Shown piece after piece: positions 3,345 to 10,993 of a stretch of 64,000 nt of DNA. The number at the start of each line of letters is the position of its first letter. Position 1 is the stretch's first letter. The DNA is taken from the NCBI GenBank assembly GCA_024331045.1, contig JANDJC010000001.1:1-64000 (forward strand), read 5' to 3'. This DNA is from Nitrospira sp. (GTDB lineage Bacteria > Nitrospirota > Nitrospiria > Nitrospirales > Nitrospiraceae). A model generated the notes under the pieces. It saw only the letters and a program-made list of their open reading frames with translations, searched no databases and had not been told where the DNA came from. The translations under genes and the position numbers were made by a program.

Positions 3345-4412
3345 ATGATCGGCCCCTACTTGACGAGTGCAATTCCCGGCATCGGTGGGCAAATCCGTGT
3401 GGTACCGGAAGATTTTTGCGTGGAAGAGTTGCCACTGTATCTCCCCTGTGGCACCGGCGAGCATCTCTACATCAAGGTCACCAAGCGGCTCCTGTCCACG
3501 CCCGATCTCATCAGGCTCATTTCGAATACGACGGGCCTGAAAGCCAAAGCCATCGGCATGGCCGGCCTCAAAGACGCACGGGCCATCACGACCCAGATGC
3601 TGTCTCTCCATCTCGTCACGCCCGAACAGGTGGCTCGTCTCAAGACCAACGAGCGGATTCTTTCCCTCGAGGTCCTCGGACACCATCGGAATCGGCTGCG
3701 CCCCGGCCACCATGCCGGAAACCGGTTTCGCTTGGTGATTCGGGACGTGGCGGCCCATGCCAAGGACACAGTCCCGGCCATTGTCGAGATTCTTCAGCGC
3801 CGAGGCGTGCCGAATTATTTCGGCCCCCAACGGCAGGGACGGGACGGAAGCAATTATCGGATCGGCGCGACTTTGCTGACCGATCAAACCAAACGGGCCT
3901 CGATGAGTCGCGCCAAACGCCTGTGGTACTTCCACGCCTTTCAGTCCCATCTGTTTAACCGCATTCTTGCCAAGCGGATCGACTCGCTTGATCATGTCTT
4001 TGCCGGCGACTGGGCGATCAAGACCTCGACTGGCGGCTGTTTCTTGGTTGAAGACGAGGACGCGGAACAACCCCGAGCCAACCGGTTCGAGATCAGCCCA
4101 ACGGGGATCCTGTTCGGTTCACGCGTCTCATGGGCTGGCGGCGGGCCGGGACGGATCGAGGAAGCCACCGCCGCGGAACTGGGGATGACGAAGGATCGGC
4201 TGATTCAAGCAGCCAAGGCTTGCGGATTCCGTGGCGAGCGCCGGGCCTTGCGGGTGCCCCTCAGGGACCTCGAGTGGTCGCTCGACGGATCAACCCTAAC
4301 TCTGGCCTTTACCCTTCCTCCCGGCGCATACGCCACCAATGTGCTGAGAGAACTGATGAAAACTGATCAGTCTTGTTCTCCTGCCGATCCTTTCCTCCTG
4401 GAAGAGAAGTGA
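3345..4412 (+). CDS. truD: tRNA pseudouridine(13) synthase TruD
   Basis: TruD converts uridine 13 of tRNA(Glu) and some other tRNAs to pseudouridine. The 355-residue product has the family signature around the catalytic aspartate, GMAGLKDARA with Asp77, and further TruD blocks PNYFGPQRQGRDGSNYRIG and LWYFHAFQSHLFNRILAKR. Length fits the family. The N-terminus (IRVVPEDFCVEE) is the usual start of TruD, supporting the ATG at 3345. It is followed after about 37 bases by the arginine-catabolism pair; there is no functional link that I can see. Confidence 0.95.
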   Translation: MIGPYLTSAIPGIGGQIRVVPEDFCVEELPLYLPCGTGEHLYIKVTKRLLSTPDLIRLISNTTGLKAKAIGMAGLKDARAITTQMLSLHLVTPEQVARLKTNERILSLEVLGHHRNRLRPGHHAGNRFRLVIRDVAAHAKDTVPAIVEILQRRGVPNYFGPQRQGRDGSNYRIGATLLTDQTKRASMSRAKRLWYFHAFQSHLFNRILAKRIDSLDHVFAGDWAIKTSTGGCFLVEDEDAEQPRANRFEISPTGILFGSRVSWAGGGPGRIEEATAAELGMTKDRLIQAAKACGFRGERRALRVPLRDLEWSLDGSTLTLAFTLPPGAYATNVLRELMKTDQSCSPADPFLLEEK

Positions 4413-4449: not shown

Positions 4450-5694
4450 ATGAATATTCATCAAGAAACCGTCGTCTTGAACGGCCACATCATCGACTCG
4501 TTGTTGCTCGCCAAGGTACTGGACCTGATCCTCATGATGGGCGGAGATTTCGACCTCGAGGATGTTCAGATCGGCAAGACGCGAGAGGCATCTTCTCGCG
4601 CCCGTATCACGGTTCGGGCCCCTTCCCAAACGCTGTTGGATGATATCCTCAAGGCCATTCAGCCGCACGGCGCCTCCGTCGAGCGCGAGGCGGACTGCCG
4701 ACTCGAAGCCGCTCCAGCCGACGGCATTTTCCCTGAGAATTTCTACGCCACCACCCATTTGCCGACTCAAATCAGACTCAACGGCCGATGGATCGACGTC
4801 GAGCACATTGAGATGGACGTCGGCATTGTGGTGGACCGACGGCGGGAGACTGCCCAAGCCGTTCCCATGGGTGAAGTACGGCAAGGAGAACTCGTCGTGA
4901 CCGGCCGAGAGGGGGTGCGGGTGATTCCCTTGGCCCGTCCCCGCGAGCGTGACGTCTTCGGTTTCATGGAATCCCACGTGTCGGCCGAACGGCCACACGG
5001 CCACGTCATCGCCGATATCGCGTCCAGAATGCGCCGCCTTCGTGAACAGCACAGACAGGAGGGCGCCGCCTGTCGAGTCTTGCTGGCGGGAGGGCCGGCC
5101 ATCATCCATGCCGGTGGACGGGACGCCTTGGCCTGGCTGATCGAGGAAGAATTTATTCATGTGTTGTTTTGCGGCAATGCCCTGGCCGCCCACGATATGG
5201 AAGCAGACCTGTACGGCACATCCTTGGGCTATGGACTGACCGCCGGACGCACGATTCCCCACGGCCATGAGCATCACTTGCGGACCATCAACCGGATTCG
5301 CGCGATCGGCAGCATCGAACGAGCTGTGGCCTCTGGCATCGTAAAAAACGGTATCATGGCCGCCTGCATTCGGAAGCACGTCCCAGTCGTGATGGCCGGC
5401 ACCATCCGCGACGATGGCCCCCTGCCCGGCGTCATCACCGATTCCATTCAAGCGCAACGGGCCATGCGCGCCGCAATTAGTGGGGTGAAACTGGCACTGC
5501 TGGTGGCCTCCACATTGCACGCCGTCGCCACGGGCAACCTGCTACCGGCCACGATCCCCACGGTCTGCGTGGACATCAATCCCTCCGTGCCGACCAAACT
5601 CGCGGATCGTGGGAGTTTTCAAGCCGTCGGCCTCGTGATGGACGCCGCGTCGTTTCTCAATGAACTCGCCAGACGGTTGGGAAGACCGGCATGA
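4450..5694 (+). CDS. LOR/SDH-type ornithine cyclodeaminase (TIGR00300 family), AgrE C-terminal half as a separate protein
   Basis: The 414-residue product belongs to the TIGR00300 / LOR-SDH family, which in methanogens is an ornithine cyclodeaminase and which forms the C-terminal half of cyanobacterial AgrE. Visible blocks are an N-terminal alpha/beta region (ETVVLNGHIIDSLLLAKVLDLI), FPENFYATTHLPT, VLLAGGPAIIHAGGRDALAWLI, FCGNALAAHDME and GVITDSIQAQRAMR, with a Rossmann-like nucleotide-binding core in the second half. Predicted reaction: ornithine to proline plus ammonia. The stop overlaps the start of the argZ-like gene by 4 bases (ATGA), so the two are translationally coupled. The family assignment is firm; the exact activity is inferred from the neighbour and from AgrE. 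Confidence 0.8.
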   Translation: MNIHQETVVLNGHIIDSLLLAKVLDLILMMGGDFDLEDVQIGKTREASSRARITVRAPSQTLLDDILKAIQPHGASVEREADCRLEAAPADGIFPENFYATTHLPTQIRLNGRWIDVEHIEMDVGIVVDRRRETAQAVPMGEVRQGELVVTGREGVRVIPLARPRERDVFGFMESHVSAERPHGHVIADIASRMRRLREQHRQEGAACRVLLAGGPAIIHAGGRDALAWLIEEEFIHVLFCGNALAAHDMEADLYGTSLGYGLTAGRTIPHGHEHHLRTINRIRAIGSIERAVASGIVKNGIMAACIRKHVPVVMAGTIRDDGPLPGVITDSIQAQRAMRAAISGVKLALLVASTLHAVATGNLLPATIPTVCVDINPSVPTKLADRGSFQAVGLVMDAASFLNELARRLGRPA

Positions 5695-6494
5695 CCCGCC
5701 TCCTTGTCTGTCCACCGGACTTTTTTGGGATTGAATATGAAATCAACCCCTGGATGCGACTCAACAATCAGGTGGATCATGAACGGGCGATCCTCCAATG
5801 GAATAACTTGATGGCGGTCTTCGAACGGGACATCGGGGTGACGCTCGAACGGATGACACCGGTCCCCGGTCTCCCCGATTTAGTCTTTACAGCCAATGCG
5901 GGCATCGTGGTTGGCCGCCAAGCGGTTGTCAGCCGCTTTCGCTATCCCGAGCGACAACGGGAAGAGGCTTATTTCGAGAACTGGTTTCGCGACCATGGGT
6001 ATGAAATCTTGACGTTGGAACCAGGCCTCTTCTTTGAAGGAGCCGGCGACCTGTTGGGATTTCCCGATTGCTGGTTCGGCGGCTATCGTCAACGGTCCGA
6101 TGTCCGCGCATTTCCAATCTTGAGCGAATGGTTTCATCGTGAGATTCTTCCGCTCGAATTGGTGGACCGCCGTTTCTATCATCTGGATACCTGCTTCTGT
6201 CCATTAAGCGGAGGTGATCTCTTATATTTTCCACCCGCGTTCGATCACTATGGCCAGACCGCCATTGCCGAGCGAATCCCCCCAACCAAGCGACTCGTGG
6301 TCCCCGAGCACGACGCCCTGCGATTCGCTTGCAATGCGGTCTGCGTCGGCAACCATGTCGTGCTTCCGGCCGGCTGCCCAACGACCGAGCAGATGCTCCG
6401 GGAGCACGGGTACCAACCCCACGCCGTGTGGCTGGATGAATTTATGAAATCAGGTGGCTCGGCCAAGTGTTTGACCCTGCGGTTGGAGGAGTGA
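5691..6494 (+). CDS. argZ: Arginine dihydrolase ArgZ-like (guanidine-modifying superfamily)
   Basis: ArgZ hydrolyses arginine to ornithine, CO2 and two ammonia. The 267-residue protein lines up over its length with the N-terminal domain of cyanobacterial AgrE/ArgZ: NPWMRLNNQ, LPDLVFTANAG with Asn69 (Asn here separates ArgZ from arginine deiminases), SRFRYPERQREEAYF, FFEGAGD (Glu116, Asp120), the catalytic histidine in FYHLDTCFCPL (His164), and the C-terminal nucleophile in GGSAKCLTLR (Cys260). All key residues are present. It overlaps the upstream cyclodeaminase by 4 bases. In cyanobacteria the two activities sit in one polypeptide, in the opposite order. Together they should convert arginine to proline and release three ammonia. 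Confidence 0.82.
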   Translation: MTRLLVCPPDFFGIEYEINPWMRLNNQVDHERAILQWNNLMAVFERDIGVTLERMTPVPGLPDLVFTANAGIVVGRQAVVSRFRYPERQREEAYFENWFRDHGYEILTLEPGLFFEGAGDLLGFPDCWFGGYRQRSDVRAFPILSEWFHREILPLELVDRRFYHLDTCFCPLSGGDLLYFPPAFDHYGQTAIAERIPPTKRLVVPEHDALRFACNAVCVGNHVVLPAGCPTTEQMLREHGYQPHAVWLDEFMKSGGSAKCLTLRLEE

Positions 6495-6940: not shown

Positions 6941-7153
6941 CGTTCACCATCCTCCACTGGACACCTGACCACGTTGCGCGTTCAAAAGCAAAGGCTACAC
7001 CGATCCCGCCACGATCCGCCAGGGACGGTTGCCCGTTGATTGACAGGGGAAAGACGCGCTTCCTATAATCCATCGACTTCGAGCGATGGCCTATTCTCCA
7101 CCTTCGTGACCTTCCGCCGTTCGTCGCCACCTATCGACCCATGCATCTCTACC

Positions 7154-8173
7154 ATGCAGCCACTGACTAACATAGCCGTCATCGGCGCAGGGGCATGGGG
7201 AACGGCGCTCGCCAAGTTGTTGGCCGAAAAGGGATTGACCGTTCGCCTGTGGGCCTATGAGCCCGAGGTGGCGCACGCGATCAATACCCTCCATGAAAAT
7301 CCCGTTTTTCTCAAGGGCATCTCGCTTCCCCTCTCTCTTACCGCCACATCTTCCCTCGCCGAGGCCGTGGAAAATTGCGAGGCATTGCTGTTCGTGACCC
7401 CCTCTCATGTCGCGCGCTTGGTTCTTCAACAGCTCGCCCCTTATCTTTCCAAACCGGTTCCTATCATCAACGCCACCAAGGGGATTGAAGAAGGCACCGC
7501 CTCTCTCATGACCCACGTGATGGAAGAGGTCCTTGCCCCTTCGCTCCATCGATCCATAATGGTCCTCTCCGGGCCCAGTTTTGCCGAGGAGTTGAGCTCG
7601 GGGTGCCCGACGGCCGTGTGTCTGGCCGGTTCGGACGATCAGCTGGTTCGACGATTTCAGCAGATCCTGATGACGCCAACCTTCCGGGTCTATGCCGATT
7701 TCGATGTGATCGGTGTCCAGTTGGGCGGAGCCCTCAAGAACGTTATCGCTTTGGCAGCCGGCATCGTGGATGGCCTTGAGCTTGGCCTCAACGCACGCGC
7801 GGCGCTCATTACGAGGGGACTGGCCGAGATTGTTCGCCTAGGCTCGGCCATGGGAGCTGATCCCCGTACCTTCTACGGCCTCTCCGGCGTGGGGGATCTC
7901 GTGCTGACCTGTACCGGCACACTGAGCCGGAACCATACGGTCGGGATGCGTATTGGGAAGGGCGAGTCGCTGGAGACGATTCTCGGTACCATGCATACGG
8001 TGGCGGAGGGGATCAGAACAGCGCGGGCGGCGTGGCAACTGGCCCAACGATATGGAGTGGACATGCCCATTACACAAGAGACCAACGCGGTCTTGTTTGG
8101 CGGCAAGTCCTGCCGCAAAGCCGTGAGTGACCTGATGGAGCGTGACGCCAAGATGGAGAAATCGCCCCTATGA
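7154..8173 (+). CDS. gpsA: NAD(P)H-dependent glycerol-3-phosphate dehydrogenase
   Basis: GpsA reduces dihydroxyacetone phosphate to sn-glycerol 3-phosphate for phospholipid synthesis. From the ATG at 7154 the protein is 339 residues, the usual size. It opens with the Rossmann motif VIGAGAWGTALAKLLA and has the family blocks PIINATKGIEEG, VLSGPSFAEEL and the catalytic lysine segment GGALKNVIALAAGI, then GLSGVGDLVLTCTG. The ORF-track start at 7040 adds 38 residues that precede the conserved N-terminus and was rejected. The stop overlaps larB by 4 bases, so the two are coupled. Confidence 0.95.
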   Translation: MQPLTNIAVIGAGAWGTALAKLLAEKGLTVRLWAYEPEVAHAINTLHENPVFLKGISLPLSLTATSSLAEAVENCEALLFVTPSHVARLVLQQLAPYLSKPVPIINATKGIEEGTASLMTHVMEEVLAPSLHRSIMVLSGPSFAEELSSGCPTAVCLAGSDDQLVRRFQQILMTPTFRVYADFDVIGVQLGGALKNVIALAAGIVDGLELGLNARAALITRGLAEIVRLGSAMGADPRTFYGLSGVGDLVLTCTGTLSRNHTVGMRIGKGESLETILGTMHTVAEGIRTARAAWQLAQRYGVDMPITQETNAVLFGGKSCRKAVSDLMERDAKMEKSPL

Positions 8174-8943
8174 GATCAGAACGGATCGCGCGACTGCTTC
8201 GCCAAGTTCGCCAAGGGCGCCTTAGCATCGAGGCCGCCTTCCGGCAATTACGATCCCTGCCGTTTGAGGACTTGGGGTTCGCCTCCCCCGATCACCATCG
8301 TTCGCTACGCCAAGGATTCCCCGAAGTGATTTTATGCGAGGGTAAGTCGATCGCCCACATCAGGGCTATCGCCCATTCCCTCCTTCGGCATGGCGGTCCC
8401 TTTCTTGCCACCAAGGCCACTCCCGCCATTGCCCGCGCGATTCGGCGATTGGCGCCCCGTGCGCGATTCTACGCCGAGGCTCGCGTCGTCGCCATCCCGC
8501 CACGGCCGTGGACGAGACGGGGCCAGGTCCTGGTGATCAGCGCCGGCACCGCTGACATTCCCGTCGCGGAGGAAGCTCGCGTTACGGCGGAAGTCATGGG
8601 GAGCAAAGTCGAACGACTGTATGATGTCGGGGTAGCGGGACTTCATCGACTCTTAGGCCACACAGACCAGCTCTTCGATGCCAGAGTGATCATCGTGGTC
8701 GCAGGCATGGACGGTGTCCTGCCGAGCGTGGTGGGGGGCCTCGTCCAATGTCCCGTGATCGCGGTCCCCACCAGCCAGGGCTACGGAGCCAGTTTCGGCG
8801 GGCTCTCAGCGCTCCTCACCATGCTGAATTCCTGCGCGGCGGGCGTCGGGGTGATGAACATTAACAACGGCTTTGGAGCTGGTTGCCTCGCTCACCGGAT
8901 TAACATGATGGGGATAACCACCCCCAAAACGGCGGAAGCCTGA
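8170..8943 (+). CDS. larB: Nickel-pincer cofactor biosynthesis protein LarB
   Basis: LarB carboxylates nicotinic acid adenine dinucleotide and breaks its phosphoanhydride bond, the first step to the nickel-pincer nucleotide cofactor. The 257-residue protein has a family-specific N-terminal part (FEDLGFASPDHHRSLRQGFPEVILCEGKS) and a PurE-like C-terminal part (VISAGTADIPVAEEA, YDVGVAGLHRLL, VAGMDGVLPSVVGGL, PVIAVPTSQGYG, NINNGFGAGCLAHRIN). It starts inside the gpsA stop (ATGA). larC follows about 0.8 kb downstream on the same strand, interrupted by an opposite-strand gene. No larA or larE lies in the window. Confidence 0.92.
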   Translation: MRSERIARLLRQVRQGRLSIEAAFRQLRSLPFEDLGFASPDHHRSLRQGFPEVILCEGKSIAHIRAIAHSLLRHGGPFLATKATPAIARAIRRLAPRARFYAEARVVAIPPRPWTRRGQVLVISAGTADIPVAEEARVTAEVMGSKVERLYDVGVAGLHRLLGHTDQLFDARVIIVVAGMDGVLPSVVGGLVQCPVIAVPTSQGYGASFGGLSALLTMLNSCAAGVGVMNINNGFGAGCLAHRINMMGITTPKTAEA

Positions 8944-9742: not shown

Positions 9743-10993
9743 ATGGAGCGCCATCTACATTTCGACTGTTTTTCCGGCATCAGTGGCGACATGGTACTAG
9801 GCGCGCTCGTCGACGCTGGATTGTCGTGGACGGCCTTGGTGACGGGACTCCGAGGATTGAAGCTCAATGGGTACCGATTGCGACGACGAACCGTGCGACG
9901 GGGAACGGTGAAGGCCACGAAGGTTGACGTGATCGTCCAACGAGGATTCGAGCGTCCCCTTTCCCTTGCTCGCATTCGCCACATTGTGACAGCCGGCGCC
10001 CTGCCGCCGGAGGTCAAGGAACGGAGCCTCGCTGTGTTCCATCGGCTGGCCGAGGCGGAAGCAACGGCTCATCGCTTCGCCGCTCACCGGGTCCAGTTCC
10101 ATGAAGTGGGAGTCTTGGATTCCTTGATCGACGTCGTGGGTTGTATGCTCGGATGCCATTTCCTAAACATCGTCAAGACGACCGCGTCCGCCGTGAACGT
10201 GGGAAGCGGAATGGTGCAGACCGATCATGGACTCTTACCGGTGCCGGGGCCGGCCGTGGCAGTCCTGGCCAAGGGAATTCCCGTCTATTCGGATGGACCA
10301 CGTTGTGAACTGGTCACGCCAACCGGCATCGGCCTGCTACGAACCCTTGTTTCGGATTTTGGTCCCACTCCCCTCATGACCATCACCTCCATCGGGTACG
10401 GCGCCGGTGACCACAACCCAGAACATTGGCCGAACGTGTTGCGCATATTCCTCTCCGAGTCCACAACCGGCAGCCCGCTGGTAGAGCGGGTCATGCAGAT
10501 CGAGACGAATGTGGACGACCTGACGCCACAAGCTTACGAACATGTGATGGACCGTTTGTTTCGCGCGGGGGCCTTGGACGTCGTGCTGACCCCCACCCTC
10601 ATGAAACGGGGCAGGCCAGGCATGATCATCACCTGCCTGGCCTCGCCAGAACGAGCCGACCCTCTGCTCAACGTGTTGTTTAAGGAAACCCCCACGCTCG
10701 GCGTGCGCGTGCAAGAACTGTCCCGCCATGTGCTGCCTCGTCGGATCGTCCCAGTGACGGTCCGCGGGAAGACCGTTCGGATGAAGGTCGCCACGATGAA
10801 AGACGGAACCGAGAAAGCGGCTCCTGAGTATCGCGACTGTCAGGCCATCGCCGACCAGACGGGGCTGCCCCTGCGACAGGTAATGGAGGAAGCCTGTCTC
10901 ACCTATCGGGCCAATCAGAGGGTCGAACGAAATGACGCGCGCCTCTCTCCGTCCCAGCGAAGCCCCCGGAGGGCGAGACGAACCCCCTCATAA
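9743..10993 (+). CDS. larC: Nickel-pincer cofactor biosynthesis protein LarC (nickel insertion)
   Basis: LarC inserts nickel into the pincer nucleotide in a CTP-dependent step. From the ATG at 9743 the protein has 416 residues and starts with the family hallmark HLHFDCFSGISGDM. Other blocks are AHRVQFHEVGVLDSLIDVVG, ELVTPTGIGLLRTL, ETNVDDLTPQAYEHVMDRLF, GALDVVLTPTLMKRGRPG and MKVATMKDGTEKAAPEY. It is one uninterrupted frame, unlike the Lactiplantibacillus gene, where LarC1 and LarC2 are joined by programmed frameshifting. The ORF track runs back to 9308, but that extension is antisense to the previous gene and was discarded. Confidence 0.92.
   Translation: MERHLHFDCFSGISGDMVLGALVDAGLSWTALVTGLRGLKLNGYRLRRRTVRRGTVKATKVDVIVQRGFERPLSLARIRHIVTAGALPPEVKERSLAVFHRLAEAEATAHRFAAHRVQFHEVGVLDSLIDVVGCMLGCHFLNIVKTTASAVNVGSGMVQTDHGLLPVPGPAVAVLAKGIPVYSDGPRCELVTPTGIGLLRTLVSDFGPTPLMTITSIGYGAGDHNPEHWPNVLRIFLSESTTGSPLVERVMQIETNVDDLTPQAYEHVMDRLFRAGALDVVLTPTLMKRGRPGMIITCLASPERADPLLNVLFKETPTLGVRVQELSRHVLPRRIVPVTVRGKTVRMKVATMKDGTEKAAPEYRDCQAIADQTGLPLRQVMEEACLTYRANQRVERNDARLSPSQRSPRRARRTPS

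Follow-up and report, generated by a model that had tools for sequence, protein, structure and literature searches.

Two overlapping genes in the window, a 64,000-nucleotide stretch of a Nitrospira sp. contig, likely encode the two enzymes of one arginine-to-proline pathway, arranged in a probably ancestral layout and with an ornithine cyclodeaminase (OCD) that may use the nickel-pincer nucleotide (NPN). The first gene (4450–5694, forward strand) encodes a 414-aa OCD of the LOR/SDH type and the second (5691–6494, forward strand) a stand-alone 267-aa arginine dihydrolase (ADH) of the ArgZ/AgrE N-domain type. Judged by homology, the pair very probably carries out a two-step conversion of arginine to proline with release of ammonia. 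The ADH would convert arginine to ornithine, CO2 and two NH3, with Cys260 as the nucleophile and Asn69 as the residue that, by analogy with ArgZ, separates a dihydrolase from a deiminase; the OCD would then form proline from ornithine via internal hydride transfer, releasing the third ammonia. The yield of three ammonia per arginine predicted in the initial annotation, to which one CO2 should be added, is supported by homology to AgrE, which takes arginine through ornithine to proline and releases one CO2 and three ammonium (PMC8262935). We infer the substrate, activity, flux direction and cofactor of the pair, through which arginine may be channelled either into making proline or into releasing nitrogen. 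In the 1.69 Mb scanned of the host genome (a draft of 2.85 Mb in 109 contigs, 85% complete), proA was found (38% to E. coli); proB, proC and the proline dehydrogenase PutA were not found in this portion.

The cyclodeaminase and the dihydrolase

The 414-aa protein passes the NCBIfam model TIGR00300 (465.6 bits against a cut-off of 410.8, residues 6–410), which places it in this family, and Pfam finds the PF04455 LOR/SDH N-domain together with both ArgZ-like C-terminal domains, PF21571 and the Rossmann domain PF21570. Its AlphaFold model (pLDDT 89.5) fits the C-terminal half of AgrE and ArgZ as well as the M. maripaludis structure 3c2q, in line with the earlier assignment of this reading frame as a LOR/SDH OCD. 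Like the archaeal TIGR00300 OCDs (M. maripaludis 3c2q, M. jannaschii MJ1480), it scores above the family cut-off, contains all domains and is free-standing; unlike them, it is coupled to a dihydrolase gene, and the dihydrolase family has no match in the M. jannaschii and H. volcanii control genomes. Weak TIGR00300 matches at profile positions of about 184–257, seen in surveyed genomes, possibly represent deoxyhypusine-synthase-like proteins.

For the 267-aa protein, the best NCBIfam match is the arginine dihydrolase model NF052232 with 299 bits, which is under the curated cut-off of 450; none of the 53 Nitrospirota matches to this model reaches that value. ArgZ and AgrE are its best solved relatives by sequence (ArgZ chains, E about 1e-80), and its AlphaFold model (pLDDT 96.8) matches the substrate-bound N-domain of ArgZ (6jv1) with a TM score of 0.97 and 46% identity. 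The catalytic residues Asn71, His168 and Cys264 of ArgZ correspond to Asn69, His164 and Cys260: Asn69, conserved in 34 of 34 aligned rows, aligns with the ArgZ asparagine that is serine in chain 6juz (title: N71S), Cys260 aligns with the cysteine that is serine in 6jv1 (title: C264S), and His164 sits inside a YHLDTC motif that is invariant in the alignment. The initial annotation had named the protein an arginine dihydrolase with all its catalytic residues intact, and both statements hold on this evidence. As single chains, the two models thus match the respective halves of ArgZ and AgrE.

It is improbable that the 267-aa protein is instead a deiminase or a dimethylargininase (DDAH) with citrulline as the product. 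Such an identity could draw on the NF052232 score under the cut-off and on the model NF045659, named “dimethylargininase” (M. tuberculosis type), which scores 244 bits on the protein, itself below a cut-off of 300. Yet the dihydrolase model is the best match, the fold is closer to the ArgZ chains than to DDAH (TM 0.97 versus 0.79–0.82, with 46% identity to ArgZ), Asn69 is present in every aligned row, and the partner gene is predicted to act on ornithine, not citrulline. NF045659, which we take to be the family of Rv2323c, resembles the Nitrospira ADH in being a stand-alone dihydrolase-like protein; the Nitrospira ADH differs in having a cyclodeaminase gene, not one for an ornithine aminotransferase, as its partner. 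If that equation is right, the name “dimethylargininase” is itself doubtful, because Rv2323c is required by M. tuberculosis for proline from arginine (PMC4569260). NCBIfam scores and structure comparison together led us to reject a DDAH or deiminase identity in favour of the dihydrolase.

Gene order and the cyanobacterial fusion

The cyclodeaminase is encoded first, and the start of the ADH gene overlaps the OCD stop as ATGA (5691–5694, forward strand), exactly as originally described. This 4-nt overlap suggests translational coupling of the two genes. Across 61 split pairs (the window and 60 related loci), an overlap is present in 34, with a length of 4 nt in 33 cases and 29 nt in one. The pair is conserved in the same order at about 60–92% identity across genus and order, which rules out chance ORFs. 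Directly upstream, separated by a 37-nt gap, lies truD (3345–4412, forward strand), which accompanies the pair across the genus, and gpsA (7157–8173, forward strand) stands between the pair and larB in the genus loci that reach that far; neither is a member of the pathway. Nearly all relatives in the genus show the order truD-OCD-ADH, mostly followed by gpsA, larB and larC where the contig extends; the exceptions include L061, L072 and L074, in which the cyclodeaminase was not found or is incomplete. A perfect sigma-70 consensus (TTGACA, 18, TATAAT; 12 of 12 positions) at 7040–7069 precedes gpsA-larB and suggests that these two genes are transcribed separately from the OCD-ADH pair.

The closest known systems are AgrE (Anabaena Alr4995; 6lrf, 6lrg, 6lrh) and ArgZ (Synechocystis Sll1336; 6juy, 6juz, 6jv0, 6jv1), represented by the fusion model NF052231, with which the Nitrospira pair shares both halves, the fold, the catalytic Asn/His/Cys and the predicted overall reaction. 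Identity to the aligned cyanobacterial AgrE/ArgZ rows amounts to 45–50% for the ADH and 37–41% for the OCD. What differs is the architecture: in place of a single polypeptide with an N-terminal dihydrolase, Nitrospira has two ORFs with the cyclodeaminase first, and neither half reaches the NF052231 cut-off of 1025 bits. The cyanobacterial fusion and the 4-nt overlap are indirect hints at a putative OCD-ADH complex, in which the two proteins may be in physical contact.

The initial annotation presented the locus as an AgrE split into two genes in reversed order. As a comparison with cyanobacterial AgrE this wording is apt; as an event in this genome it is not supported by the distribution of the two layouts. 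An OCD gene followed directly by an ADH gene is found at nearly all genus loci and also in seven phyla besides Nitrospirota, namely Nitrospinota, Gemmatimonadota, Armatimonadota, Chloroflexota, Planctomycetota, Verrucomicrobiota and Myxococcota (the phylum of each locus as titled or classed), and none of the loci examined in these seven phyla carries an ADH-OCD fusion. In 116 cyanobacterial genomes, by comparison, all 48 TIGR00300 matches lie in frames of 683–744 aa, the length of the fused protein, and every one of the 31 cyanobacterial loci in which domains were mapped (30 of the 48 plus L127) is an ADH-OCD fusion. In quick maximum-likelihood trees of the OCD (46 rows) and the ADH (63 rows), the 14 fused cyanobacterial rows form a single group with a support of 100 in both. 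The OCD tree is rooted on a single long-branched archaeal sequence, in a region where long branches come together, and the exact placement is correspondingly weak.

The two-gene layout is ordinary and widespread, and the cyanobacterial AgrE fusion looks derived, because the separate pair occurs in seven other phyla, the 14 fusions are one group and the archaeal chain 3c2q is without a dihydrolase; free-standing OCD and ADH genes are probably ancestral. The economical reading is a single fusion event, in cyanobacteria, with Nitrospira retaining the older separate genes; the locus thereby points to an origin of AgrE from two such genes by fusion. That an AgrE-type fusion was secondarily split and inverted in the Nitrospira lineage is, by contrast, extremely improbable: the comparison with cyanobacteria is its sole support, and it has against it that the other phyla keep the two genes apart and equally ordered, the lack of any fusion among the loci examined there and the grouping of the sampled fusions in both trees. 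A recent split that broke AgrE was rejected on the same OCD and ADH trees.

Nickel-pincer nucleotide genes and the cofactor of the cyclodeaminase

More interesting than the “split and reversed” order are the nickel-cofactor genes next door, which the initial annotation had left aside. At 2.5–5 kb downstream of the OCD-ADH pair lie larB (8170–8943, forward strand; NPN biosynthesis; NF033503, 279 bits, cut-off 175) and larC (9743–10993, forward strand; nickel insertion in NPN biosynthesis; TIGR00299, 185 bits, cut-off 90; NF052512, 143.5 bits, cut-off 50). The start of larB overlaps the gpsA stop by 4 nt (8170–8173). For larC, the longest ORF runs from 9308, and the likely start is 9743 (MERHLHF), as the homology of relatives begins at most three residues from this motif. 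LarE is encoded on another contig of the genome (306 bits, cut-off 150). LarA has no match in this genome, which at 85% completeness is weak evidence for this genome alone; above the cut-off it is found in none of the 19 sampled genomes of the genus, this one included, and in 14 of 148 Nitrospirota. The locus is thus like the LarA/LarB/LarC/LarE system in having LarB and LarC in the window and LarE in the genome, and differs from it in that no LarA was found and in the likely recipient of the cofactor, the TIGR00300 cyclodeaminase, which belongs to another family.

The placement of larB and larC is conserved across the genus, and most other genera of the family link OCD to larB at about 3–6 kb, one genus at about 20 kb (contig positions); the small number of genomes inspected from the same order but other families did not show the linkage. 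Of the 148 Nitrospirota genomes, LarB is present in 47 of 47 with TIGR00300 versus 77 of 101 without it (Fisher p 6e-5), and in cyanobacteria in 46 of 48 versus 26 of 68 (Fisher p 3e-11); both p values treat genomes as independent, ignoring relatedness, and therefore overstate the association. Among 28 TIGR00300 genomes identified via their loci, four have no LarB, as do two of the 48 cyanobacteria (a Leptothoe genome counts in both sets), several of these being MAGs or drafts. A further 74 of the 148 Nitrospirota genomes (e.g. G124, G173, G177) are above the cut-off for LarB and below it for both TIGR00300 and LarA, which makes another NPN client or another use of LarB likely.

We consider NPN made by LarB, LarC and LarE the more likely cofactor of the OCD, rather than free NAD+, so that the second step of the pathway may need a rare nickel cofactor. 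The link between NPN and this family is already contained in the curated NCBIfam name of TIGR00300, “nickel-pincer nucleotide-dependent” OCD. This name suggests a published basis, although our search for work that connects ornithine cyclodeaminase with the nickel-pincer cofactor found no paper in the literature covered.

It is unlikely, if considerably less so than the alternatives weighed above, that the pathway is the same but the OCD uses NAD+, with larB and larC serving another protein or being inherited neighbours. By its title, PDB entry 6lrg contains AgrE in complex with ornithine and NAD+, and the next fold neighbour of the Rossmann half of the OCD model is deoxyhypusine synthase, of which several entries were solved with NAD. 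The consensus promoter of gpsA-larB would also fit this explanation, as would the TIGR00300 genomes without LarB, the many Nitrospirota with LarB and without TIGR00300, and the disregard of relatedness in the co-occurrence counts; the OCD-larB link could be family-level synteny, that is, an inherited neighbourhood. Against NAD+ speak the presence of LarB alongside TIGR00300 in all 47 Nitrospirota and nearly all cyanobacteria that have it, the genus-wide lack of any LarA client among the genomes sampled, and the curated family name. The preferred reading, an NPN-using OCD, can be extended to a Nitrospira nickel-dependent arginine-to-proline route in which the OCD is a client of the LarB/C/E NPN and its PF04455 N-domain can act apart from the rest as a partner of the dihydrolase, next to which Gastranaerophilales retain this domain alone; for this fuller proposal we regard the case as evenly balanced.

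About 15% of surveyed genomes, many cyanobacteria included, have larB, larC and larE but no larA (PMC11796402), which suggests that the nickel cofactor is used by enzymes other than LarA. With larB and larC beside the cyclodeaminase in a genus in which no larA was found, the question of the NPN client becomes testable within one genus, and the nickel-dependent route, if true, would explain the use of NPN in these genomes where LarA is missing. Many phyla also have stand-alone dihydrolases, through which ammonia may be freed from arginine, in the present case in a nitrifying lineage.

Four Gastranaerophilales genomes, in which full TIGR00300 was not found and of which one passes LarB, encode a stand-alone PF04455 protein of about 72–79 aa (49–71 bits, cut-off 23.5) before the dihydrolase (L117: 3527–3763; L119: 7689–7985; L122: 7660–7965; L124: 5810–6043).
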